Positions 30,797 to 42,538 of a stretch of DNA of 64,000 bases are shown in pieces; position 1 is the stretch's first letter, and each line of letters opens with the position of its first letter. The notes below the pieces were generated by a model, which was not told the DNA's origin, made no database searches, and worked only from the letters and a program-made list of their open reading frames with translations. The stretch is from Haloarcula sp. DT43 (GTDB lineage: Archaea > Halobacteriota > Halobacteria > Halobacteriales > Haloarculaceae): NCBI RefSeq assembly GCF_037078405.1, contig NZ_JAYMGZ010000003.1, positions 124,001 through 188,000 on the forward strand, in the 5' to 3' direction. Made by a program: the position numbers and the translations under genes.

Positions 30797-31171
30797 TCAG
30801 CGGGGGGCGGTCTGGTCCCAGTCGTACCCCCACTCGCGTAGCTTCTCGGCGACGAGGGCCGGGTTGTCCATGGCGACGACGAGGGCGGCCTCCAGTGCGT
30901 CGGTCTTGTACACGTCCTCGCCGACTTCGTCTTCCAGGGTCCGGAGGAAGGTCGACTCCCGCTCCTCGACCTCGGGTCGGATGAATATCGGCCGCTGCTT
31001 GCGGTCCTGCTTGACCGAGTCACGGCGGAACTTGTACGGGATGTCGGGGTGGGTCGTCCGCTCTGTGTCGGTGGGCGACGGGTCGGTGGCCGCCGGCTCG
31101 TCGTCCCCGGCGTCCGATTCTGGCTCCGAGTCCGTCTCGGCGAAGGGGTCGTCGCCGGAGCCGGACTTCAT
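30797..31171 (-). CDS. Small acidic partner of ParA-family ATPase (putative DNA-binding)
   Basis: 124 residues from ATG 31171, which overlaps the ParA stop by 4 bp (ATGA). Residues 1-45 are strongly acidic and low complexity (DETDSEPESDAGDD-like), so probably disordered. A basic stretch FRRDSVKQDRKQRPIFIRPEV follows, then helices about ERESTFLRTLEDEVGE and KTDALEAALVVAMDNP. A beta strand followed by two helices would suit a ribbon-helix-helix fold, as in ParG, Omega or SegB-type partners, but I do not recognise the family. Its position after parA and the 13-bp arrays on both sides of the operon make it the likely repeat-binding adaptor. Disorder at the N-terminus could contact the ATPase. Confidence 0.75.
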   Translation of the reverse strand: MKSGSGDDPFAETDSEPESDAGDDEPAATDPSPTDTERTTHPDIPYKFRRDSVKQDRKQRPIFIRPEVEERESTFLRTLEDEVGEDVYKTDALEAALVVAMDNPALVAEKLREWGYDWDQTAPR

Positions 31172-32013
31172 GCCGTCGCCTCCTGTTCGCGAGTCCGGCG
31201 GAGATGCGCGGCCAGTTCTTCGAACTGCTCCAGCGTTTCGAGTTCGTAGTCGCGTTCCCGGCTTCGGTGGTCTTCGATATATTTGAACGCCGAGCACTGT
31301 TTGCGCCAGCACCCCTCCAACAGCGACGTCCGCTCGCGGAACACGACCGGGATGTCGTACGACTCGGCCCGGAGCCGTTTGAGCATCTCTTCCTGGTCGT
31401 TCGTGCCCTTGAACCGGTTCGGCACCGCGGCCAACACGCCCACGTTGATGTCGAGCGTCTCCTCAAGGCCGGTGACGAGGTCCGCCAGGCCCTCGACGGA
31501 CTGCTGGCCTTTCCCGCTGGGCTCGAACGGGATGACGAGGTTCCGGGTCGCGTGCAACGCGTTGTACAGTTTCACGTCCGCGGTCGCCGGCGGGTCGATG
31601 ATGACCGTATCGTACTCGGACGGAACGTCGGCGTCTTTCAGCACGCGCAGGAGCTGGACGTTCGGGTTCCAGTTCTCGCCGAAGTCCGCCGCTTCCTCCT
31701 CACGGCGACGGAGGTGCTTCGAGAGCACTTCCAGGGAGTTGTGGGCCGGGAGCACGTCGACGCCTTCGGACGTTTCGACGAGGTCCGCGAACGGTCCGCG
31801 GGGTCGTTCGACAAGGTGCCGGACCAGGCTGTCGGCCTCCGAGTCCGTCCGGTGGTCCGCGACGTCGAACAGGAACGAGAGGCTCCCCTCCTGTGGGTCC
31901 ATGTCGATTGCCAGCACGTCGTGACCGGCGCGGGCGTCGGCGACGGCGAGGTTCGCCGCCATCGTCGTCTTGCCGACACCGCCGGCCTCGCTGTACACGG
32001 TGTAGGTCAGCAT
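31168..32013 (-). CDS. ParA/Soj-family partition ATPase
   Basis: 281 residues. The Walker A region is YSEAGGVGKTTMAANLA: the second Lys (GKTT) is kept, but the signature Lys of the KGGVGKT form is Ala. The switch I/A' region LAIDMDPQEGSLSFLFD and Walker B DTVIIDPPAT are intact, and LVIPFEPSGKGQQSVEGL matches the ParA core. Residues about 195-281 hold a helical C-terminus rich in basic residues. The protein should form ATP-dependent dimers on nucleoid DNA and move a partner-DNA complex. It is the first gene of a two-gene operon with a leaderless promoter overlapped by three 13-bp repeats. No ParB with a HTH domain is nearby; the small protein downstream is the candidate adaptor. Confidence 0.9.
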   Translation of the reverse strand: MLTYTVYSEAGGVGKTTMAANLAVADARAGHDVLAIDMDPQEGSLSFLFDVADHRTDSEADSLVRHLVERPRGPFADLVETSEGVDVLPAHNSLEVLSKHLRRREEEAADFGENWNPNVQLLRVLKDADVPSEYDTVIIDPPATADVKLYNALHATRNLVIPFEPSGKGQQSVEGLADLVTGLEETLDINVGVLAAVPNRFKGTNDQEEMLKRLRAESYDIPVVFRERTSLLEGCWRKQCSAFKYIEDHRSRERDYELETLEQFEELAAHLRRTREQEATA

Positions 32014-32036
32014 ACCCTACGGAAGACACTACCCAG

Positions 32037-32043
32037 ATATAAA
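32037..32043 (-). promoter_or_regulatory. TATA box of the ParA-family operon
   Basis: TTTATAT on the minus strand is centred 27 nt before the ATG at 32013, so the transcript should be leaderless. The adjacent BRE position falls inside the three-unit 13-bp repeat block, so binding there would block TFB/TBP and give autoregulation. Confidence 0.7.
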
Positions 32044-32046
32044 GAT

Positions 32047-32085
32047 TAGTCAGACGGTATAGCTATACTGTATAGCCACATCGAC
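32047..32085. repeat. Three-unit 13-bp repeat at the ParA promoter (putative operator)
   Basis: Units start at 32047 (TAGTcagacggta), 32060 (TAGCtatactgta) and 32073 (TAGCcacatcgac), exactly 13 bp apart and in the same orientation as the larger array at 30525. The best units share the GTATAGC core with that array. Confidence 0.82.
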
Positions 32086-32104
32086 AATCCACGGTGACCG
32101 CGGG

Positions 32105-33340
32105 CTACTCGTCGAACAGCCCCGCAAGCGTCTCGCGCATCTCCGCTCGTCGGTGGGACCGGGCCTCGGACTCGGAGAGGTAGTTATCCAGGACGACCTG
32201 TGCGGAGGCCGAGCCCTGCTCGGCCGCCACGTCTTCGAACCGCTCGGCGACCCGCCGGACGGCAGCGCCGTACGTCGTGTACCAGAAGCGACGCCCCGTC
32301 TTCGGCGTCGGTCGAGCGCCGTCGACGGTGATATCGGCGGCTTCGGCTACCGATTTGAACCGTCGACGGACGGTTTCGGCGGTCAGATGGCCGGTGGCCG
32401 ACGCCGCAGAGGGGAGGAGATAGCCGTTCCAGTCCGGACCGGAGAGCGCTTCGATGCGCTCGCTGATCGTCGCCAGACCAGCCAACAGGGCCACGGTTCC
32501 GGGGCCGTTCTTCCGCTCGCCGTCGGTGAACTCTATGTACGGATGCGAGTCGTCGTCCGGTTCGAGGTTGAGCTGACGGACGTGCAGCGACGCGACTTCG
32601 CTCGGTCGGAGTCCCCAGCCACAGCACGCGACGACGATGAATCGGTCCCGTGGCTCGGCCGCGGCCGCGTATAGGCGCTCGACAGCGCTTCTATCGAGTG
32701 CCTCGTTGTCCCAGGAAGGGGTCTCGTCCCACCCGAATCGGGTTTCGAGGTCGGCGAGCGGATTGTACGCGGCGGTTCCGAACATCACCTGGTGCTTGTA
32801 GAACTGCCGGGTGTCCTGGACGTACTTGCGCCGCGAGGCGAGCGTCGTCAGCGTCTCGTCAGACCGGTCGAGGGCGTCGAAAGTCGCTGCGACCCGGTTC
32901 ATCTCCGCGACGCGTTCGTCGGGATTTTCCAGCGGTCCGAGCAAGTCTTTCGTATCGTGGATATTGGTATATACTTTCGCGTATCGGCGTAGAATCGACC
33001 GCCGTGTGTCGATTGTGGCGTCGGCACGGCCGCGCCGGGTCGCAAGCTCGTCGAGGTACCCCTCGAGTGCCTGCTGTGTGTTGTCAGAGAGGAACGCGAA
33101 CGGAGCGGTCGACCGGTCCACGTCCGGGACGCCGATTTCGTCGTAGAACTGACCGGGAGACAGGTCCAGTCGCCGCTGCAGGTGCTTGACGAATCCGGGG
33201 AACTGGCCGTTCAGCCATGCGTACGTCGGCGTCTCCGAATCCGGGTCGAAGCCATCGTCTTCCATCACCGGCACGACGGTTTCGCGGTAGAAGGACGCAC
33301 AGTCCGCCAGGTCCATCGTCGCATAGCGAGTCTCAGTCAT
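32105..33340 (-). CDS. Tyrosine recombinase / XerC-D-like integrase
   Basis: 411 residues from ATG 33340 (an upstream in-frame ATG at 33439 adds an atypical N-terminus). An N-terminal SAM-like core-binding domain (about 90-190, ALEGYLDELATRRGR) precedes the catalytic domain. Box I is CCGWGLRPSEVASLHV with the first catalytic Arg. The Box II region reads GRRFWYTTYGAAVRR where HxxR is expected, so the His is replaced; the final Tyr is in VVLDNYLSESEA. This reduced motif set occurs in haloarchaeal plasmid and provirus integrases. It lies directly upstream of the ParA operon on the same strand, so the island may be an integrated plasmid or may keep its own multimer resolution. Confidence 0.8.
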   Translation of the reverse strand: MTETRYATMDLADCASFYRETVVPVMEDDGFDPDSETPTYAWLNGQFPGFVKHLQRRLDLSPGQFYDEIGVPDVDRSTAPFAFLSDNTQQALEGYLDELATRRGRADATIDTRRSILRRYAKVYTNIHDTKDLLGPLENPDERVAEMNRVAATFDALDRSDETLTTLASRRKYVQDTRQFYKHQVMFGTAAYNPLADLETRFGWDETPSWDNEALDRSAVERLYAAAAEPRDRFIVVACCGWGLRPSEVASLHVRQLNLEPDDDSHPYIEFTDGERKNGPGTVALLAGLATISERIEALSGPDWNGYLLPSAASATGHLTAETVRRRFKSVAEAADITVDGARPTPKTGRRFWYTTYGAAVRRVAERFEDVAAEQGSASAQVVLDNYLSESEARSHRRAEMRETLAGLFDE

Positions 33341-33739
33341 CGACTCGCGCTCGCTCGTGGAGCTGCAGTAACCGTCGCGCTGTCCGAGTTGACGCATCTG
33401 AATCACTTGATTTTCGCATACAGAGTGCTTCAGTCGCATCACTAATAATTTGTCTTGTATTGTTTTCTCACGCAGAAACCCACAACAAGACAGTTAGCGG
33501 AGGATATATTACTACAGCGGATAAATCATATGGCGCTATATCAAATTCGGGGCTCGGCGACGGATATTCCAAGCGGTTTAGACGGGCTATGAAGCGCAAA
33601 TTCGGCCGATAAGCCGGCTATCCGACCCCATAGCGGTGCCTGTGAAACCCCCGTCGTCCGAGCGGGGTTGATTCGTATTTTCTCACCCCGGTAAGTCCGC
33701 GTAGGAGGTCCGTCGTTCGGTCAGGGCCGATTCCGTATC
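33341..33739. other. AT-rich region upstream of the recombinase
   Basis: About 400 bp with no gene of convincing codon use. It contains an 8-bp perfect inverted repeat (TGTCTTGT 33451-33458, ACAAGACA 33485-33492) and then a change back to GC-rich sequence near 33620, which may mark the right edge of the accessory island. No tRNA gene or obvious att duplication was seen. Confidence 0.5.
33451..33492. repeat. Inverted repeat upstream of the recombinase gene
   Basis: TGTCTTGT and ACAAGACA are perfect complements separated by 26 bp, about 110 bp before the recombinase start. They could be a recombinase-binding site or an operator. The spacing is longer than the 6-8 bp usual for a crossover core. 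Confidence 0.45.
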
Positions 33740-34291
33740 TTAGGCGGCCGTGTTCCGGACGGTCTCTCTGTCCAGGAGCCACGCAGCGAGCAGAGAGGCG
33801 GCGATACCGATACCGACGCCGGCGACGGTATCGGTGAGGTAGTGTGTCCCCAGATAGACCCGCGAGACGGCGACCAGCGTCGCCAGCGTGGCCACTGTGC
33901 CGAACGGGAGGGCGTCGGACTTCCGGGCGGTCATGGCGTACACCGTCACGGCAGCGGCGTGGCCCGACGGGAACGACGTGGCCACCGTCTCGGCCCCGTC
34001 GGTCAGACAGACCGGGGCGGCCGGAAACGGACGCTGAATCGTCAGCATGAGCGCCCCGACGAACGCACCCGCGAGCACCAGCGCGAGGAGGCTGTGGCGA
34101 AACGCCTCGTCCCAGTCGGCCAGGTAGCAGACGCCGACGAAACAGAGCGCCGCCGTCGCCGAACCGAGCCCAGTCACCGAGGTGAGAAGCTTCGTCAGCA
34201 GAGGAGTCCGTGCGGCAACGATGGCGTCCATCGTCACCGCGTCGACTCGAACGAGCAGGTCGAGGAGGTCGGCGAGTAGCTGCGCTATCAC
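33740..34291 (-). CDS. PAP2-family membrane phosphatase
   Basis: 183 residues with five to six hydrophobic helices. The three-part phosphatase signature is present: RPFPAAP with a shortened first block (K-x6-RP reduced to a RP), PSGHAAAVTVY, and SRVYLGTHYLTDTVAG with the catalytic His. The active site faces outside in this family; substrates are lipid phosphates such as phosphatidic acid or prenyl diphosphates. It is the last gene of a minus-strand group with the YdjM-like protein and a CDP-alcohol phosphatidyltransferase, so a role in lipid or polyprenyl carrier recycling is plausible. Confidence 0.87.
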   Translation of the reverse strand: MIAQLLADLLDLLVRVDAVTMDAIVAARTPLLTKLLTSVTGLGSATAALCFVGVCYLADWDEAFRHSLLALVLAGAFVGALMLTIQRPFPAAPVCLTDGAETVATSFPSGHAAAVTVYAMTARKSDALPFGTVATLATLVAVSRVYLGTHYLTDTVAGVGIGIAASLLAAWLLDRETVRNTAA

Positions 34292-34315: not shown

Positions 34316-34792
34316 TCATAGGGACTCGGTCCCGACCGGGGGCGCTCCGCCTCGCCAGCGCCGAACGAGCAGTCCCGCGACGGCCAGCCAGAGCGCGACT
34401 TCGAGGAAAAACGACGGGCTCCAGAGGTAATACAGGAAGAAAGACCCCGGTGGAAGGGCGAGCGGGTCCGTCGGAACGACGACGGGCCACAGCAGGAAGA
34501 CGGCATCGCCGGGCCGGCCGTTGACGACGACGTGAACGGTATCGAGCAGGAGATGCAGCGCCCAGCCGACCGCGGCCGACAGCCCCACACGCCCGGACAG
34601 CGCCAGCGGCACCGCGAGGAGGACCAGCAGCGCCGAGTGGCCCACGGAGTGAAACAGCGACGTGACGCCGACGGTCGCCAGCGGCTTGTCGAGGAGGTCG
34701 GGGACCGCAGTGCCGGCGACCAGCCACGGCGTGGAGAGCCGGGACGCCCGGCCGGCGAGCCAGGCCGCGAGCAGGTGCGTCGGGAAGAGCAT
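34316..34792 (-). CDS. YdjM/DUF457-like membrane-bound metal-dependent hydrolase
   Basis: 158 residues, four hydrophobic helices. The pattern of conserved residues is MLFPTHLLAAW (His near residue 6), GTAVPDLLDKP (Asp pair near 32), SVGHSALL (His) and HLLLDTVHV (H-x3-D-x2-H), the putative metal site of the DUF457 family. A 24-bp gap separates it from PAP2 and 25 bp from the phosphatidyltransferase upstream, so the three are probably one operon. Enzyme activity of this family is poorly established. Confidence 0.78.
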   Translation of the reverse strand: MLFPTHLLAAWLAGRASRLSTPWLVAGTAVPDLLDKPLATVGVTSLFHSVGHSALLVLLAVPLALSGRVGLSAAVGWALHLLLDTVHVVVNGRPGDAVFLLWPVVVPTDPLALPPGSFFLYYLWSPSFFLEVALWLAVAGLLVRRWRGGAPPVGTESL

Positions 34793-34817
34793 ACGCGTAC
34801 GTCGTCGGCGAGACGTA

Positions 34818-35585
34818 TCAACGTCCCCCGTCGAACCACTCCCTCGGCAGCCGGCCGCTGACGACGAGGAAGTCCCGGACGAACACAGCGAGCGACGGCG
34901 CGAGGACGGCGGGCGCGAGCGCGAAGACGAGTCTGACCGGAACCGCGGGGACGAGCGCGACGGTGAGAAACGCCATCTGGACGCCCGCGAAGTACTTCCC
35001 GAGGTCGCTGTCCGGCCGGTCGAAGACCGGGCGACCGCGCAGCCGTCGCCACCGTATCCCCGCGAGGTAGACGTATCTGGCGGCGGAAATCGAGAGATAC
35101 CAGACGGGGAGCCGGCCCCACAGCACCGCGAGGACGGGCGCGACGACGAACCCGAAGGTGTCGAACGCCATGTCGAGGCGCGTGCCGAGCGCCGTCTGTT
35201 GCCCGACCGTGCGGGCGACCGCGCCGTCGAGTCTGTCGAGGGCGACGCCGACGCCGTAACACGCCGCCGGTACCCACGCGAGGTCGGTCGTCGCCGGGAC
35301 GACGAGGAACCCGGCGACGACGGCGTACAGCCCGCCCCGGAGCAGCGTCAGCGTGTTCGCCAGCCCGAAGACGTACCGCCACGGCCGGACGGTCTCCAGC
35401 CCGCGGCCCGCGTACCAGAGCTGTCCCGCCAGACAGACGCCCGCGACGGCGGCGGGGTGGACCATCCAGCGAGTCATCGCGTCGGCGGGGAACAGCGCGC
35501 CGACCACGGTGGCTACGGTTACGGCTCCGACGACCGGGAGGCCGACCCGGAGCCCTGCGGGCGCGTCACCCTGTCGGCCCGCCAT
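34818..35585 (-). CDS. CDP-alcohol phosphatidyltransferase
   Basis: 255 residues from ATG 35585 (a GTG at 35591 is also possible). The full family motif D-G-x2-A-R-x8-G-x3-D-x3-D is present as LDGAVARTVGQQTALG followed by TRLDMAFD near residues 113-136; the four Asp bind two metals for transfer of a phospho-alcohol to or from CMP. About six to seven hydrophobic helices surround it. In archaea such enzymes attach head groups (serine, inositol phosphate, glycerol) to CDP-archaeol. The head group cannot be named from the sequence. Neighbouring dehydrogenase, sulfatase-fold and glycosyltransferase genes suggest an unusual polar lipid or glycan. Confidence 0.9.
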   Translation of the reverse strand: MAGRQGDAPAGLRVGLPVVGAVTVATVVGALFPADAMTRWMVHPAAVAGVCLAGQLWYAGRGLETVRPWRYVFGLANTLTLLRGGLYAVVAGFLVVPATTDLAWVPAACYGVGVALDRLDGAVARTVGQQTALGTRLDMAFDTFGFVVAPVLAVLWGRLPVWYLSISAARYVYLAGIRWRRLRGRPVFDRPDSDLGKYFAGVQMAFLTVALVPAVPVRLVFALAPAVLAPSLAVFVRDFLVVSGRLPREWFDGGR

Positions 35586-35657
35586 CGCCACCTCCCGGGC
35601 CGCTCTGGGTCGGGTCGCCCACCGGCGTCGTCCGAGCCGCGTCCCGGCCGGCGCGGG

Positions 35658-36041
35658 TCATCGCAACAGGGCGACGAGGACGGCGAGGAGAACGACCTGT
35701 GCGAGCTTGTCGACCGCGCCCAGCGTCCCGATATCGGCCGGGAACGACTTCCCGAGCGCGACGAAGTTGACGTAGTACCACAACACGATTTGGACGAGCG
35801 TGAAGGGGACACCGACGGCGTAGACGGTCCGGCGGCGGTAGTCCAGCGCGACCAGCACAACCGCGCCCAGGAACCCGAGCCCGGCGAGCACGAAACTGAT
35901 ACCCATGGCCGACGGGAGCATCCTGACGCCGAGCAGGAGGTGAACGGCGGCGGAGACGAGTGCGGCGGCGATGCCGACCCAGTGCAGGCTATCGAGCGAG
36001 GCCAGGTCCGGTGAGAGCGCTTGTGTCTCGGTCGTGCTCAT
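35658..36041 (-). CDS. Four-helix membrane protein (DUF7475-like)
   Basis: 127 residues with four hydrophobic helices (about 20-38, 47-66, 73-93 and 106-126) and a polar N-terminal 18-residue tail. Sequence such as GVPFTLVQIVLWYYVNF is typical of a small haloarchaea-only family that I recall as DUF7475. It precedes the phosphatidyltransferase by 72 bp on the same strand. No functional residues are evident. Confidence 0.7.
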   Translation of the reverse strand: MSTTETQALSPDLASLDSLHWVGIAAALVSAAVHLLLGVRMLPSAMGISFVLAGLGFLGAVVLVALDYRRRTVYAVGVPFTLVQIVLWYYVNFVALGKSFPADIGTLGAVDKLAQVVLLAVLVALLR

Positions 36042-38188: not shown

Positions 38189-39073
38189 GTGACAGAACCG
38201 GGGATGGGCCGGCTCGGGACGGCGTACCTGCGGGCGCTCCAGGCAGTCGGCCGCCGACTCGACTACGGGACGAACGTCTACGAGCGCGAGTGGGACGTCC
38301 TCGTGGTGCTCGACGGCTGTCGAGCCGACGTGCTCCGGTCGGTCGCGCCGGACGTGGGCTTCCTCGGGACGGTCGAGACGGTCCGGTCGGTCGGTAGTTC
38401 CTCCTCCGAGTGGTTGGAGAACACGTTTCTCGGCCACCCGGAGACTGGACACACCGCGATGGTCACCGGCAACACGTGGACCGACCGGTACCTCGACGCC
38501 GGGGCGTTCGCGGCGCTGGACGAGGTCTGGAAGTACGCGTGGGACGAGGACCTGGCGACCGTACCGGCGGCGGCGGTCACCGACCGCGCTATCGCACTGG
38601 CCCGCGAGCGGACCCCCGAGCGGCTGGTCGTCCACTACATGCAACCGCACCACCCGTTCGTGCCGGCGCCGCTGGAGGGCGACGACGGACTGGCCCGGAC
38701 CGGCGACCACAGCAACACGGCGAACCCGTGGGTGTCCCTGCGCCGCGGCGAATTCCGGGCCGAGCGGGTCTGGGCGGCCTACGAGGCGAACCTCCGGTAC
38801 GTCCTGGCGTCGGTCGGGACCCTGCTCGACAACGTCGACGGCCGGGTCGCCATCACGGCGGACCACGGCAACCTCTTCGGGGAGTGGGGGCTGTACGGCC
38901 ATCCGATGCACACGCCGGTCCCGGCGCTGCTCGCGGTGCCGTGGGCCGAGGCGACGGGCGTCGACAGCGGCCGGTTCGAGCCGGAGCTGTCACCCCCCGA
39001 GCGGCTCCCGGTCTCGCGAGTCTACGGGGCCGAAGGGGACCGCGAGCGCCTCGACGCCCTCGGGTACCGCTGA
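38189..39073 (+). CDS. Alkaline-phosphatase-superfamily (sulfatase-like) hydrolase
   Basis: 294 residues from GTG 38189. The first metal Asp is in VLVVLDGCRAD, the region RSVGSSSSEWLENTF would carry the nucleophile Ser/Thr, MQPHHPF supplies His, and ITADHGNLFGEWGLYGHP supplies the D-H pair and distal His typical of sulfatases and phosphoglycerol transferases. There is no signal peptide, so it is likely cytosolic. The family acts on sulfate or phosphate esters or phosphonates of sugars and lipids. It leads the plus-strand group that continues, after 123 bp, with dehydrogenase, PTPS-like, glycosyltransferase and methyltransferase genes. Confidence 0.82.
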   Translation: MTEPGMGRLGTAYLRALQAVGRRLDYGTNVYEREWDVLVVLDGCRADVLRSVAPDVGFLGTVETVRSVGSSSSEWLENTFLGHPETGHTAMVTGNTWTDRYLDAGAFAALDEVWKYAWDEDLATVPAAAVTDRAIALARERTPERLVVHYMQPHHPFVPAPLEGDDGLARTGDHSNTANPWVSLRRGEFRAERVWAAYEANLRYVLASVGTLLDNVDGRVAITADHGNLFGEWGLYGHPMHTPVPALLAVPWAEATGVDSGRFEPELSPPERLPVSRVYGAEGDRERLDALGYR

Positions 39074-39196: not shown

Positions 39197-40177
39197 ATGC
39201 CCGGCAAGGAGCTGTACTTCACCGGCTCGGAGTCGGTCGCCGTCGAGGAGGCCCCGATACCACGTCCCGGACCGGCGGAGGTCCGCGTCCGGACGGAGCT
39301 TTCGGGTATCAGCCCCGGGACGGAACTGCTCGTCTACCGCGGCGAGGTGTCGTCGCAGTTCGATACCGACGAGACTATCGACGCGCTGGCGGGGACGTTC
39401 TCTTATCCCCTGCGGTACGGCTACGCCGCCGTCGGCCGCGTCACGGCCGTCGGTGACGGGGTCGACGACGACTGGCTCGACCAACGCGTGTTCGCGTTCA
39501 ACCCCCACGAGAGCCACTTCCTGGCCGACCCGGAGACGCTCGTCCCGACGACGCTGTCGCCCGAGCGGGCCGTGTTCATCCCCAACGCGGAGGCGGCGGT
39601 CAACTTCGTCATGGACGCCCGGCCACGCATCGGCTCCCGCGTGGTCGTCTTCGGACAGGGTCCGGTGGGGCTGTTGACCACGGCCGTCCTCGCCGAGTTC
39701 CCGCTGACCTCGCTGGTGACCGTCGACCCCTGCCAGCGCCGGCGGGACCTCTCCGAATCGTTCGGCGCGGACCGCTCGGTCGCACCCGAGGCCCTCGCCG
39801 TCGAGGACGCCGACATCACGTTCGAGCTCTCGGGGAACCCGACGGCGCTGGACGACGCTATCGACGCGACCGGCTACGCGGGCCAGGTCGTCGTCGGGTC
39901 CTGGTACGGCACCAAGGACGTGCAGCTGGCGCTTGGAAGCGACTACCACCGCAGCCACATCCGGGTCCGGAGCAGCCAGGTGAGCCGCATCGACCCCGAC
40001 CACGCCGACCGCTGGGACAAGGACCGCCGGCTCGACGTCGTCCGGTCGTGGCTGGCCGAACGGGACCTCTCGGCGCTGCTGACCCACCAAATACCTATCG
40101 ACCGTGCGGCCGAGGCCTATCGACTGCTGGACGAGCGGCCCGACGACGCCGTCCAGGTCGTTCTCTCCTACGAGTGA
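39197..40177 (+). CDS. Zinc-independent medium-chain dehydrogenase (BchC/MDR type)
   Basis: 326 residues from ATG 39197. The N-terminal domain has ELSGISPGTELLVYRGEV in place of the Cys-His catalytic-zinc motif of alcohol dehydrogenases; SGISxGTE is seen in BchC-like and some polyol dehydrogenases. The cofactor domain starts VVVFGQGPVGLLTTAVLA, and LVTVDPCQRRRDL suggests NADP preference. The structural Cys4 zinc lobe is also absent. It begins an operon with the PTPS-like (35 bp gap), glycosyltransferase and methyltransferase genes. Substrate unknown; oxidation of a sugar- or pterin-linked alcohol is a reasonable guess. Confidence 0.85.
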   Translation: MPGKELYFTGSESVAVEEAPIPRPGPAEVRVRTELSGISPGTELLVYRGEVSSQFDTDETIDALAGTFSYPLRYGYAAVGRVTAVGDGVDDDWLDQRVFAFNPHESHFLADPETLVPTTLSPERAVFIPNAEAAVNFVMDARPRIGSRVVVFGQGPVGLLTTAVLAEFPLTSLVTVDPCQRRRDLSESFGADRSVAPEALAVEDADITFELSGNPTALDDAIDATGYAGQVVVGSWYGTKDVQLALGSDYHRSHIRVRSSQVSRIDPDHADRWDKDRRLDVVRSWLAERDLSALLTHQIPIDRAAEAYRLLDERPDDAVQVVLSYE

Positions 40178-40212
40178 CACCATTTACGTGACTCCCAGCC
40201 CTGTATCGGGTC

Positions 40213-40590
40213 GTGTACTCGACGACAGTGCTGACGGACTTCGTGGCACAGCACTACCTCACCGTCCCGGACGCCGGCCCCGAGGGGGAGCCCCACTCCC
40301 ACCACTACGAGGTGGAACTGTGCTTTCGCGGCCCCACCCTCAACGAGTTCGACTACATCGTCGACATCGACGACGCCGAGGCCGCGCTCTCGGGCCTCGC
40401 GGACCGCTACCGCGATACCTTGCTCAACGACTGTGCGGAGTTCGAGGGGCACAACCCCAGCGTCGAACGGTTCGCCAGGGTCATCTTCGAGCGCGTCACC
40501 GACCGCGTCAGCGACGACACCGTCACCGAACTCGCCGTGACGGTCTGGGAGGACGACGAGGCCGCCGCGAGCTACGACGACGCCGTATGA
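40213..40590 (+). CDS. 6-pyruvoyltetrahydropterin synthase/QueD-like protein
   Basis: 125 residues from GTG 40213. Zinc ligands are recognisable as FVAQHYL and HSHHYEVEL, and GHNPSVERFARVIFERV carries the substrate-anchoring Glu. The catalytic Cys that precedes the HxH block in PTPS and QueD is missing: the loop reads VPDAGPEGEPHSHH. A T-fold enzyme with altered chemistry is therefore likely, rather than the archaeosine pathway QueD. The stop overlaps the glycosyltransferase start by 4 bp (ATGA 40587-40590), so it is a coupled part of the operon. Confidence 0.83.
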   Translation: MYSTTVLTDFVAQHYLTVPDAGPEGEPHSHHYEVELCFRGPTLNEFDYIVDIDDAEAALSGLADRYRDTLLNDCAEFEGHNPSVERFARVIFERVTDRVSDDTVTELAVTVWEDDEAAASYDDAV

Positions 40591-41642
40591 GGGTCGGGCT
40601 GACGCTGTACGGGAGCCTGGAGGCGCAGTCGGGCGGGTTTCGATACGACCGGAAGCTCGTCGAGGGCCTCCGGGCCGCCGGCGACACCGTCGAAGTGGTC
40701 GAACTGCCGTGGCGCGCGTACCACCGTGGCCTGCTCGACAACGGGTCGCGGGCCCTGCGCCGGCGACTCGGCGTGGACGTCGACGTCATGTTGCAGGACG
40801 AACTCGCCCATCCGTCGCTCGTCTACACGAACCGCGCGCTCCCCTATCCCATCGTCAGCGTCGTCCACCACCTGCGGGCGAGCGAGCCCCGGCGGCTGAC
40901 GCCGCTGTACCGGGCGGTCGAACGCCGCTACCTCGACACCGTCGACGCCGCCGTCTGCAACAGCCGGCCGACGCAACGCGTGGTCGCCGACCTCGGCGTC
41001 GACCGGACCGTCGTCGCGCCCCCGGCCGGCGACCGGTTCGACCCAGCGATAGATGACGAAACTATAGACGACCGCGCACGCGCGGACCCGCTCCGGGTCG
41101 TCTTCGTCGGCAACGTCACGCCCCGGAAGGGGCTGGACACGCTCGTCGACGGAGTGGCCGCCGCCGACGCCGAGGTCGCGCTCACCGTCGTCGGAACCCC
41201 GGCCGACAGGGACCACCTCGAGTCAGTCGAGGCGAGCGTCCGCGAGCGCGGCCTGTCCGACCGCGTCAGTTTCGCGGGGCGTCTCAGCGACGACGGACTG
41301 GCGGCGACCCTCGAAGCCAGTCACGTTCTCGCGGTGCCGTCCCGCTACGAGGGGTTCGGTATCGTCTATCTGGAAGGGATGAGCTACGGCCTGCCGGCCG
41401 TCGCGTCGCGGGCCGGTGGGGCCACCGACCTGGTCACCGACGGGGAGACCGGCGCGCTCGTCGACCCGGACGACCCGGCGGCCGTGGCCCGCGAACTGGA
41501 GCGGTTCGCGGCCGACCGCGACCGGCTGGCCGCGATGGGGCGGGCGGCCAGAGACCGCTACGAGGCCCACCCAGACTGGGACGAGACGACGGCGCGGGTC
41601 CGCCAGCTGCTGGCCGACGTGGCCACGGAGGTACCGGCGTGA
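40587..41642 (+). CDS. GT4-family glycosyltransferase
   Basis: 351 residues from ATG 40587. A GT-B fold is indicated by an N-terminal domain with VGLTLYGSLEAQSGGFRY, a middle boundary VVFVGNVTPRKGLDTLVDG (start of the nucleotide-sugar-binding domain), and the GT4 donor site VPSRYEGFGIVYLEGMSYG with Glu-x7-Glu. Retaining transfer from a UDP- or GDP-sugar is expected. There is no membrane segment. It overlaps the PTPS-like gene before it and the methyltransferase after it (4 bp each), so these three proteins are probably used in one pathway. Confidence 0.9.
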   Translation: MRVGLTLYGSLEAQSGGFRYDRKLVEGLRAAGDTVEVVELPWRAYHRGLLDNGSRALRRRLGVDVDVMLQDELAHPSLVYTNRALPYPIVSVVHHLRASEPRRLTPLYRAVERRYLDTVDAAVCNSRPTQRVVADLGVDRTVVAPPAGDRFDPAIDDETIDDRARADPLRVVFVGNVTPRKGLDTLVDGVAAADAEVALTVVGTPADRDHLESVEASVRERGLSDRVSFAGRLSDDGLAATLEASHVLAVPSRYEGFGIVYLEGMSYGLPAVASRAGGATDLVTDGETGALVDPDDPAAVARELERFAADRDRLAAMGRAARDRYEAHPDWDETTARVRQLLADVATEVPA

Positions 41643-42538
41643 CCGACCCCTTCCAGCGGTACCTGCGGGCGAAACGGACCGTCGACGACCGGGCGCTGGA
41701 CCGGCGGCTCGTCCAGACGCTACGGGGCCGACTGGGCGACCGCGCCGCCGACACCGACGGGCCGCTCCGGGTACTCGAAGTCGGGGCCGGCATCGGAACG
41801 ATGCTGGCCCGGTTCGTGGACTGGGGCGTGCTCCCGGCCGGCGACGTTCGCTACACCGCGGTCGACATCGAAGCCGCGAACACCGCCGCTATCCCGGGAT
41901 TCCTGCGAGAGTGGGGGGCCGACAGCGGGGTCACCGTAACCGACGCCCCGCTGACGGTCAAGACCGGTGACCGACGTATCGAGGTCGAGACCGTCGCGGC
42001 GGACGGCGTCGCGTACGCCGCCGACGCCGACGGCTACGACCTGCTGGTCGGTGCCGCGCTGCTCGACATCGTCGACCGCGACGGGCTCCCGACGCTGCTC
42101 GGCGCGCTCGCGCCCGGTGGGCACTACTACTTCCCCATCACCTTCGGCGGCGCGACCCGCTTTCGCCCGCGACACCCGGCCGACCGGGCAGTTGAGGCCC
42201 GCTACCACGACCACATGGACCGAAAGCCCGGCGGCGACAGCCGCGCCGGCGACGACGTGCTCGACCGCCTCCAGCGGCTGGACGGAGCGACGCTGACCGC
42301 GGTCGGCGGCTCGGACTGGGTCGTCCGGCCGGTCGACGGCGCGTACCCCGCCGACGAGGCGTACTTCCTCCGGCACATCCTCGACACAATCGAGGGCGCG
42401 GTCCGGGAGGTGACCGGCGACGACTTCGACGCGCTGGACGACTGGCTGGCCAGTCGACGCGAACAGGTCGCGGCCGCGGAACTACTGTATGCCACCCACC
42501 AACTGGACTTTCTGGGTCGGGCCACCCGCGGCGTTTGA
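41639..42538 (+). CDS. Class I SAM-dependent methyltransferase
   Basis: 299 residues from GTG 41639. Motif I is LRVLEVGAGIGTMLARFVDWG, the acidic end of strand 2 is YTAVDIEAANTA, and motif post-I reads YDLLVGAALLDIVDRDGLP. The C-terminal part (150-299) has an extra domain with HMDRKPGGDSRAGD and a helix DDWLASRREQVAAAELLY. No substrate-specific motif is recognised. It is the last gene of the dehydrogenase-PTPS-glycosyltransferase-methyltransferase operon and starts 4 bp before the glycosyltransferase stop. Confidence 0.87.
   Translation: MTDPFQRYLRAKRTVDDRALDRRLVQTLRGRLGDRAADTDGPLRVLEVGAGIGTMLARFVDWGVLPAGDVRYTAVDIEAANTAAIPGFLREWGADSGVTVTDAPLTVKTGDRRIEVETVAADGVAYAADADGYDLLVGAALLDIVDRDGLPTLLGALAPGGHYYFPITFGGATRFRPRHPADRAVEARYHDHMDRKPGGDSRAGDDVLDRLQRLDGATLTAVGGSDWVVRPVDGAYPADEAYFLRHILDTIEGAVREVTGDDFDALDDWLASRREQVAAAELLYATHQLDFLGRATRGV

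Follow-up and report, generated by a model that had tools for sequence, protein, structure and literature searches.

What does a compact four-gene operon of the haloarchaeon Haloarcula sp. DT43 make? The operon occupies positions 39197-42538 of the 64,000-nt stretch of DNA analyzed here (the window) and encodes, in this order, a zinc-less MDR dehydrogenase (DH), a protein of the PTPS/QueD fold, a glycosyltransferase (GT) and a methyltransferase (MT). We propose that it is the haloarchaeal edition of an uncharacterized cluster of the SCO6650/PTPS-IV type, present in both archaea and bacteria, which would turn GTP into a 2-aminopyrimidine- or pterin-derived glycoconjugate, and we give this proposal a probability of about 0.5. 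An earlier interpretation made from the letters alone (the sequence-only reading) had described an operon whose last three genes overlap by 4 bp each. This is the case at both junctions, PTPS/GT (ATGA) and GT/MT (41639-41642), and a gap of 35 bp separates the DH stop from the PTPS start.

A PTPS-like protein with glutamate at the position of the catalytic cysteine

The catalytic cysteine of QueD, which the sequence-only reading had found missing, is replaced by Glu24 in 138 of the 142 rows of our PTPS alignment (141 loci and the window), and the zinc-binding histidines are kept (His14 in 142/142, His28 in 137/142 and His30 in 138/142 rows). Glu113, which we take to be the pterin ring anchor of PTPS enzymes, is present in 140 rows, the remaining two having gaps. 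The window protein thus reads P-E-G-x-x-H-S-H (ExxxHSH) with a full zinc triad. This differs from CxxxHGH of QueD/PTPS-I and from ExxHGH of PTPS-III, as these motifs are defined in PMC5041015, and in place of the FGPAQ signature, given for PTPS-IV in PMC5445326, the window has GPEGEP. PTPS-III, the folate bypass enzyme, comes close in having Glu for Cys near the zinc His pair; in the window protein, however, Gly25 stands at the PTPS-III Glu position, so that the distance between Glu24 and the pair is greater by one residue, and the pair itself reads His28-Ser-His30 rather than HGH.

The AlphaFold2 model of the protein (mean pLDDT 96.5) has as its top Foldseek match 3d7j, SCO6650 of Streptomyces coelicolor (TM 0.91), which is also the best match of a PDB sequence search (E 6.6e-6). 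SCO6650 and the PTPS-IV subfamily of COG0720 are the closest known system, and relatives of SCO6650 keep the same company as the window protein, namely a BchC-like DH, a GT4 enzyme, an MT and a CDP-alcohol phosphatidyltransferase. They differ in that the PTPS-IV members on bacterial plasmids read FGPAQ-x-L-H-G-A and lack the third His, whereas the window protein has the full triad, and in that the bacterial clusters carry GTP cyclohydrolase II, the haloarchaeal ones cyclohydrolase IIa or none.

Could the protein simply be a paralog from the folate or archaeosine pathway, serving as a spare QueD or as a folate enzyme of the PTPS-III/VI kind, with its operon only loosely linked? It shares with QueD (PTPS-I, 6-carboxytetrahydropterin synthase) the fold (the best-ranked QueD chains, which come after SCO6650, reach TM 0.77-0.82), the zinc His positions and Glu113, and its best NCBIfam match is the QueD model TIGR03367. 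The score of 42.3 bits is below the cut-off of 89.25, as is that of the genome's own Cys-bearing QueD (79.7). Against such an origin stand the lack of both the QueD and the PTPS-III motif, a second PTPS gene in the same genome that carries the Cys motif and adjoins queC, and the absence of annotated que genes from the annotated cluster loci (including L068-L070 and L073; this check covers annotated loci only). We consider this explanation very improbable.

A dehydrogenase without zinc ligands

The absence of zinc ligands from the DH, likewise remarked on earlier, extends across the 123 aligned rows. At what we take to be the zinc-ligand positions of MDR enzymes, Ser40 occupies the Cys position in 121/123 rows and Tyr75-Gly76-Tyr77 replaces Gly-His-Glu in 123/123. 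The Pfam scores of the DH are under cut-off (ADH_N 18.3 vs 23.5 bits; ADH_zinc_N, PF00107, 30.4 vs 31.8 bits; PF16912 just under with 30.5 bits), and the best NCBIfam model, bchC, which is also the top model for the DHs of all three groups tested, reaches 71 bits against a cut-off of 291. The DH resembles BchC and the zinc MDR polyol dehydrogenases in its MDR fold, as far as weak profile matches tell, and in an S-x-x-S-x-G-T-E segment, but differs by its distance from the bchC cut-off and by the missing ligands. In a tree of 39 DHs, the haloarchaeal rows fall on one side of a branch with support 95/94, together with the gammaproteobacterial DHs, and the bacterial DHs linked to PTPS-IV form another branch (100/100).

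The sequence-only reading had taken the residue changes in both enzymes as signs of new chemistry, which our comparison does not establish: zinc-less MDR enzymes are common, and the Glu-for-Cys exchange of the PTPS-like protein resembles the PTPS-III motif without matching it.

Conservation of the gene set across haloarchaea

Within the order, 159 of 293 genomes have a PTPS match at E <= 1e-5, a count that includes every PTPS paralog reaching this threshold; within the genus as sampled the distribution is patchy (7/17 genomes). Gene neighborhoods were compared in 28 named haloarchaeal loci from a scan of genome contigs, some of which run to contig ends, and in 100 hand-chosen PTPS-centered regions of 18 kb (9 kb per side) from 97 further genomes. 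Near PTPS, a DH gene is found in 23/28 named loci and 87/100 regions, a GT gene in 27/28 and 88/100, and an MT gene in 27/28 and 76/100; all four core genes occur together in 61 of the 100 regions. The neighborhood check that had been set beforehand thus came out in favor of a real gene set, which is widely kept together in distant haloarchaea and in other phyla.

The outer genes of the window are less constant. The CDP-alcohol phosphatidyltransferase is present in 20/28 loci and 49/100 regions, the oxidoreductase fusion (GFO/AKR) in 22/28 and 18/100, the sulfatase-fold protein (SULF) in 20/28 and only 7/100, DUF7475 in 19/28 and 13/100 (a diverged DUF7475-like family occurs at 34 loci), PAP2 in 6/28 and 7/100 and creatininase in 1/28 and 1/100. 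When additional shared neighbors were sought de novo, the ten families scanned yielded only the DUF7475-like family, a HAD phosphatase and lineage-specific genes.

A more informative companion is GCH_III (GTP cyclohydrolase IIa), which accompanies PTPS in 7/28 loci and 43/100 regions, in the latter at a median distance of 1.1 kb and a maximum of 3.6 kb. Since a genome has one or two GCH_III genes, such proximity in 43 of 100 regions is clustering far beyond chance.

A few haloarchaeal loci deserve mention in their own right. Genome G120 contains both a window-type cluster (GFO/AKR, SULF, CDP-alcohol phosphatidyltransferase) and one of the more diverged GCH_III type (L108, L109), a sign that the window type may have passed horizontally from one haloarchaeal family to another. 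On plasmid pNG700 of Haloarcula marismortui the PTPS gene is unannotated and matches in two pieces (L070:9001-9335). In a relative from the genus (G201, L023) one TGA lies inside the PTPS match, so that the gene seems broken with its neighbors kept.

Related clusters in bacteria and other archaea

Five of six gammaproteobacterial loci have the order GT-MT-GTP cyclohydrolase II (GCHII)-RibD_C-DH-PTPS, and L062 ends at a contig end. The PTPS of these loci carries the motif of the window type, as seen in L061 and L066, and a membrane protein of the LPG-synthase type and a CDP-alcohol phosphatidyltransferase, which also accompany Rhizobiaceae clusters, lie beyond it on the other strand. These relatives carry the PF00925 and PF01872 neighborhood of PTPS-IV that is absent from the window; haloarchaeal neighborhoods have PF05165 instead. 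In the AGeNNT study, PTPS-IV forms a cluster of 561 sequences whose neighborhood includes both families (PMC5445326), PF00925 being called GTP cyclohydrolase I there and GTP cyclohydrolase II in Pfam. PMC5041015 attributes to PTPS-IV an involvement in F420 synthesis (as unpublished work) and calls the function of PTPS-V unclear. We found nothing in the literature on the haloarchaeal cluster, phosphohalopterin, SCO6650 or the combined gene set, which is weak evidence as subscription journals were little covered.

Other clusters stem from plasmid records, among them those of Thiodictyon (L074), Methylosinus (L182), Peteryoungia (L183), Neorhizobium (L184), Agrobacterium (L185), Palleronia (L186), Microbacterium (L187), Arthrobacter (L188) and a member of the Rhodobacteraceae (L071). 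The plasmid clusters of Streptomyces fungicidicus (L072) and S. globisporus (L189) combine a creatininase with GCHII, and RibD_C in L189 only. Overall, GCHII (GTP_cyclohydro2) is part of the cluster in five of the six gammaproteobacterial loci, in L072, L183, L185, L186 and L189, and in the archaeal L192 and L193; a RibD_C reductase without deaminase domain is found in five of the six gammaproteobacterial loci and in L071, L074, L182, L183, L185, L186, L187 and L189. Among the alignment rows displayed, only L071, L072 and L074 have the FGPAQ signature. Three Streptomyces linear plasmids (L180, L181, L190) carry a lone PTPS-IV, with metallo-hydrolase genes and genes for proteins with a MEKHLA or cupin domain in its vicinity.

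In a phylum sample of 120 genomes, 18 matched at E <= 1e-10, and four of these fall outside the order. The gene order is MT-GCHII-DH-PTPS-GT in L192, which also has creatininase and MptA, and GCHII-DH-PTPS-GT in L193; L194 and L195 are reduced to DH-PTPS, with MptA 7-8 kb away. The cyclohydrolase of L192 (L192:6771-7964) has a C-terminal extension of ~200 residues without Pfam match.

The cyclohydrolases were compared at Tyr105 of E. coli RibA, the Tyr of the IRAYALQ stretch. Tyr is kept in L061, L063-L066, L183, L185, L186, L192 and L193, and the gammaproteobacterial and alphaproteobacterial clusters that keep it lack creatininase. Met is found in L072 and L189, in both of which a creatininase adjoins the cyclohydrolase, although two Streptomyces cases are few. 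We presume that SCO6655, a Streptomyces homolog, makes a formylamino compound and that Met in place of Tyr105 lies behind the retained formyl group; with the formyl left on, a deformylase would be needed.

The lipid and sugar genes open another possibility, in which the locus is a glycolipid or surface-glycan cluster whose GFO/AKR, GT4, MT, phosphatidyltransferase, PAP2 and SULF proteins act on a sugar-phospholipid, with the DH and the PTPS-like protein working on sugars rather than pterins. Lipid and sugar genes do flank the window cluster, and the LPG-synthase-type protein with its phosphatidyltransferase fits as well. However, the smallest conserved core is DH-PTPS, often beside a cyclohydrolase and without lipid genes, and the near-universal presence of Glu113, as presumed ring anchor, speaks for a pterin-like substrate. 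We regard a purely glycolipid function as improbable.

A proposed route from GTP

Taking the observed genes, gene order, conservation and residues together, the precursor is probably a diaminopyrimidine of the riboflavin branch, since unrelated cyclohydrolases (GCH_III and GCHII) fill one and the same slot and RibD_C and creatininase join some bacterial clusters. GCH_III converts GTP to FAPy (PMC7288161). GCH_III, creatininase-family and RibD_C enzymes, found in or near clusters of various lineages, correspond to archaeal ArfA, ArfB and ArfC, the front end of riboflavin and F420 synthesis; unlike in those pathways, the annotated cluster neighbors seen include neither a deaminase nor a lumazine synthase or F0 synthase. 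The RibD_C copy of L066 passes TIGR00227 (156.8 vs 150.15).

In the proposed route, GTP cyclohydrolase IIa (haloarchaea) or II (bacteria) would, with good confidence, open GTP to the 6-ribosylamino diaminopyrimidine phosphate, assisted by a deformylase of the creatininase family wherever the cyclohydrolase does not remove the formyl group. An ArfC/RibD-type reductase would then plausibly convert the ribosyl to a ribityl chain; as RibD_C lacks a deaminase domain, the 2-amino group would stay, which Glu113 would hold. In the window genome, these two steps would be supplied by housekeeping ArfA/B/C genes elsewhere: three creatininase genes and a single copy each of GCH_III and RibD_C, all outside the cluster. 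The zinc-less DH might next oxidize a ribityl hydroxyl, most simply at C2', to a ketone, which on chemical grounds could condense with the neighboring 5-amine and close a 7,8-dihydropterin ring, so that a dihydroneopterin-type phosphate would be reached without GTP cyclohydrolase I. The PTPS-like enzyme might edit the polyol side chain, with zinc, Glu24 as likely base and Glu113 holding the 2-amino-4-oxo ring. Finally, GT4 might add a sugar and the MT a methyl group, and the CDP-alcohol phosphatidyltransferase together with a phosphatase might couple the product with archaeol or diacylglycerol phosphate.

The MT is a class I S-adenosylmethionine (SAM) enzyme by the fold of its AlphaFold2 model (pLDDT 96.6), which has many SAM-methyltransferase matches in Foldseek (best 3mgg, TM 0.57); as to its substrate, fold comparison returned generic SAM enzymes only. 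The best NCBIfam models of the CDP-alcohol phosphatidyltransferase are archaetidylinositol phosphate synthase, PssA and PgsA, all under cut-off. Together, GT, MT and phosphatidyltransferase hint at a glycosylated, methylated and perhaps lipid-linked product, a weak part of the proposal, as some half of the 100 regions lack the lipid gene within the 9 kb covered on each side. The sequence-only reading, too, had envisaged a compound bearing a sugar and a methyl group and either pterin-like or linked to a lipid; this idea survives and gains strength from the wide co-occurrence of the four genes and from the company of GTP cyclohydrolase, RibD-type reductase and CDP-alcohol phosphatidyltransferase, although the diaminopyrimidine precursor and the sharing with bacteria had been missed.

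In its fullest form, the proposal is a pterin route common to archaea and bacteria and independent of GTP cyclohydrolase I, in which ring closure of a ribityl diaminopyrimidine follows its oxidation by a zinc-less DH, a redox step in lieu of the Amadori rearrangement, after which a PTPS homolog relying on Glu modifies the side chain, and glycosylation, methylation and joining to a phospholipid yield a membrane-anchored pterin. This full version is speculative and, on balance, unlikely.

Several observations weigh against the proposed GTP-derived glycoconjugate pathway. Cyclohydrolase, creatininase and reductase are all absent from the window cluster itself, RibD_C was not found in any haloarchaeal region, and the creatininase matches score under the ArfB cut-off (37.0 and 20.4 vs 180). 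There are clusters without GT, without MT or without phosphatidyltransferase, and the lone PTPS-IV genes make up 3 of 11 bacterial plasmid loci. In L192, a creatininase gene lies ~2 kb from PTPS on the other strand though the cyclohydrolase keeps Tyr. In 24 of the 43 regions, the genome has no GCH_III besides that of the cluster (the other 19 genomes have two), which must therefore be the working ArfA there. This counts in favor of the proposed precursor, yet riboflavin and F420 synthesis would depend on such a sole copy as well, and its position could then be mere co-location. MptA lies 3.5-8 kb from PTPS in three of the four non-haloarchaeal archaeal loci (L192, L194, L195), and it is not evident why a species that already has GTP cyclohydrolase I or MptA should need another way to dihydroneopterin.

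These last points favor a different substrate supply, in which the PTPS-like enzyme works on the usual dihydroneopterin phosphates that MptA or GTP cyclohydrolase I provides, the DH acts on the PTPS product (sepiapterin-reductase-like or hydroxyl-oxidizing), and cyclohydrolase II/IIa and RibD are riboflavin/F420 genes that drifted in, the product still being a glycosylated, methylated pterin. The window genome's own MptA (C2:317967) and the intact PTPS fold and zinc site fit this as well. Against it, MptA is absent from the haloarchaeal and bacterial loci tested, and two GCH_III copies are commoner in genomes with a PTPS match (29/159) than in those without (7/134; Fisher p 0.0006, relatedness not corrected). 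Moreover, cyclohydrolase II and RibD_C recur in Gammaproteobacteria, Alphaproteobacteria and Actinobacteria as well as in the PTPS-IV neighborhood described in PMC5445326. We judge this alternative rather unlikely, and more plausible than the glycolipid one.

Layout of the locus

The phosphatidyltransferase, sulfatase-fold enzyme and sugar oxidoreductase fusion named by the sequence-only reading as neighbors are real genes according to Pfam, with PF00884 just under its cut-off.

Features of the operon and its flank in Haloarcula sp. DT43 (window coordinates)
Feature	Position	Strand	Remarks
Zinc-less MDR dehydrogenase (DH), BchC-like	39197-40177	+	ATG at 39197; PF00107, PF16912 just under cut-off
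PTPS/QueD-fold protein, 125 aa	40213-40590	+	GTG start; PF01242 89.8 bits
GT4 glycosyltransferase (GT)	40587-41642	+	passes PF00534, 120.7 bits vs cut-off 26.4
Class I SAM-dependent methyltransferase (MT)	41639-42538	+	GTG start; weak PF13489; fold matches
Sulfatase/alkaline-phosphatase-fold protein (SULF)	38204-39073	+	start uncertain; PF00884 24.2 bits, just under cut-off 25
GFO/IDH/MocA - aldo/keto reductase fusion (GFO/AKR), 657 aa	36090-38063	-	PF01408 62.0 bits, PF00248 144.3 bits
DUF7475 small protein, probably membrane	35658-36041	-	PF24287 53.4 bits
CDP-alcohol phosphatidyltransferase, 257 aa	34818-35591	-	PF01066 58.8 bits vs cut-off 22
PAP2-family phosphatase, possible partner of the CDP-alcohol phosphatidyltransferase	33740-34291	-	PF01569 55.0 bits

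Downstream of the MT gene, past 42538, no recurring neighbor gene was seen. A 450-codon open reading frame at 34662-36014 (+) was rejected, its apparent conservation being that of the phosphatidyltransferase and DUF7475 genes to which it is antisense. Just upstream of the cluster, genes for a ParA-like ATPase and for a protein with weak resemblance to phage integrases lie at 31168-33442 (-).

Implications

Haloarchaea contain phosphohalopterin. If the proposed pathway is correct, a hidden branch of GTP metabolism with a product not yet named would extend across haloarchaea, proteobacteria and actinomycetes. SCO6650 and PTPS-IV, whose function is unpublished, would obtain a role, and the second ArfA copies of some haloarchaea as well as the odd Streptomyces cyclohydrolases would be explained. 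Membrane lipids might thereby gain a pterin-type group.

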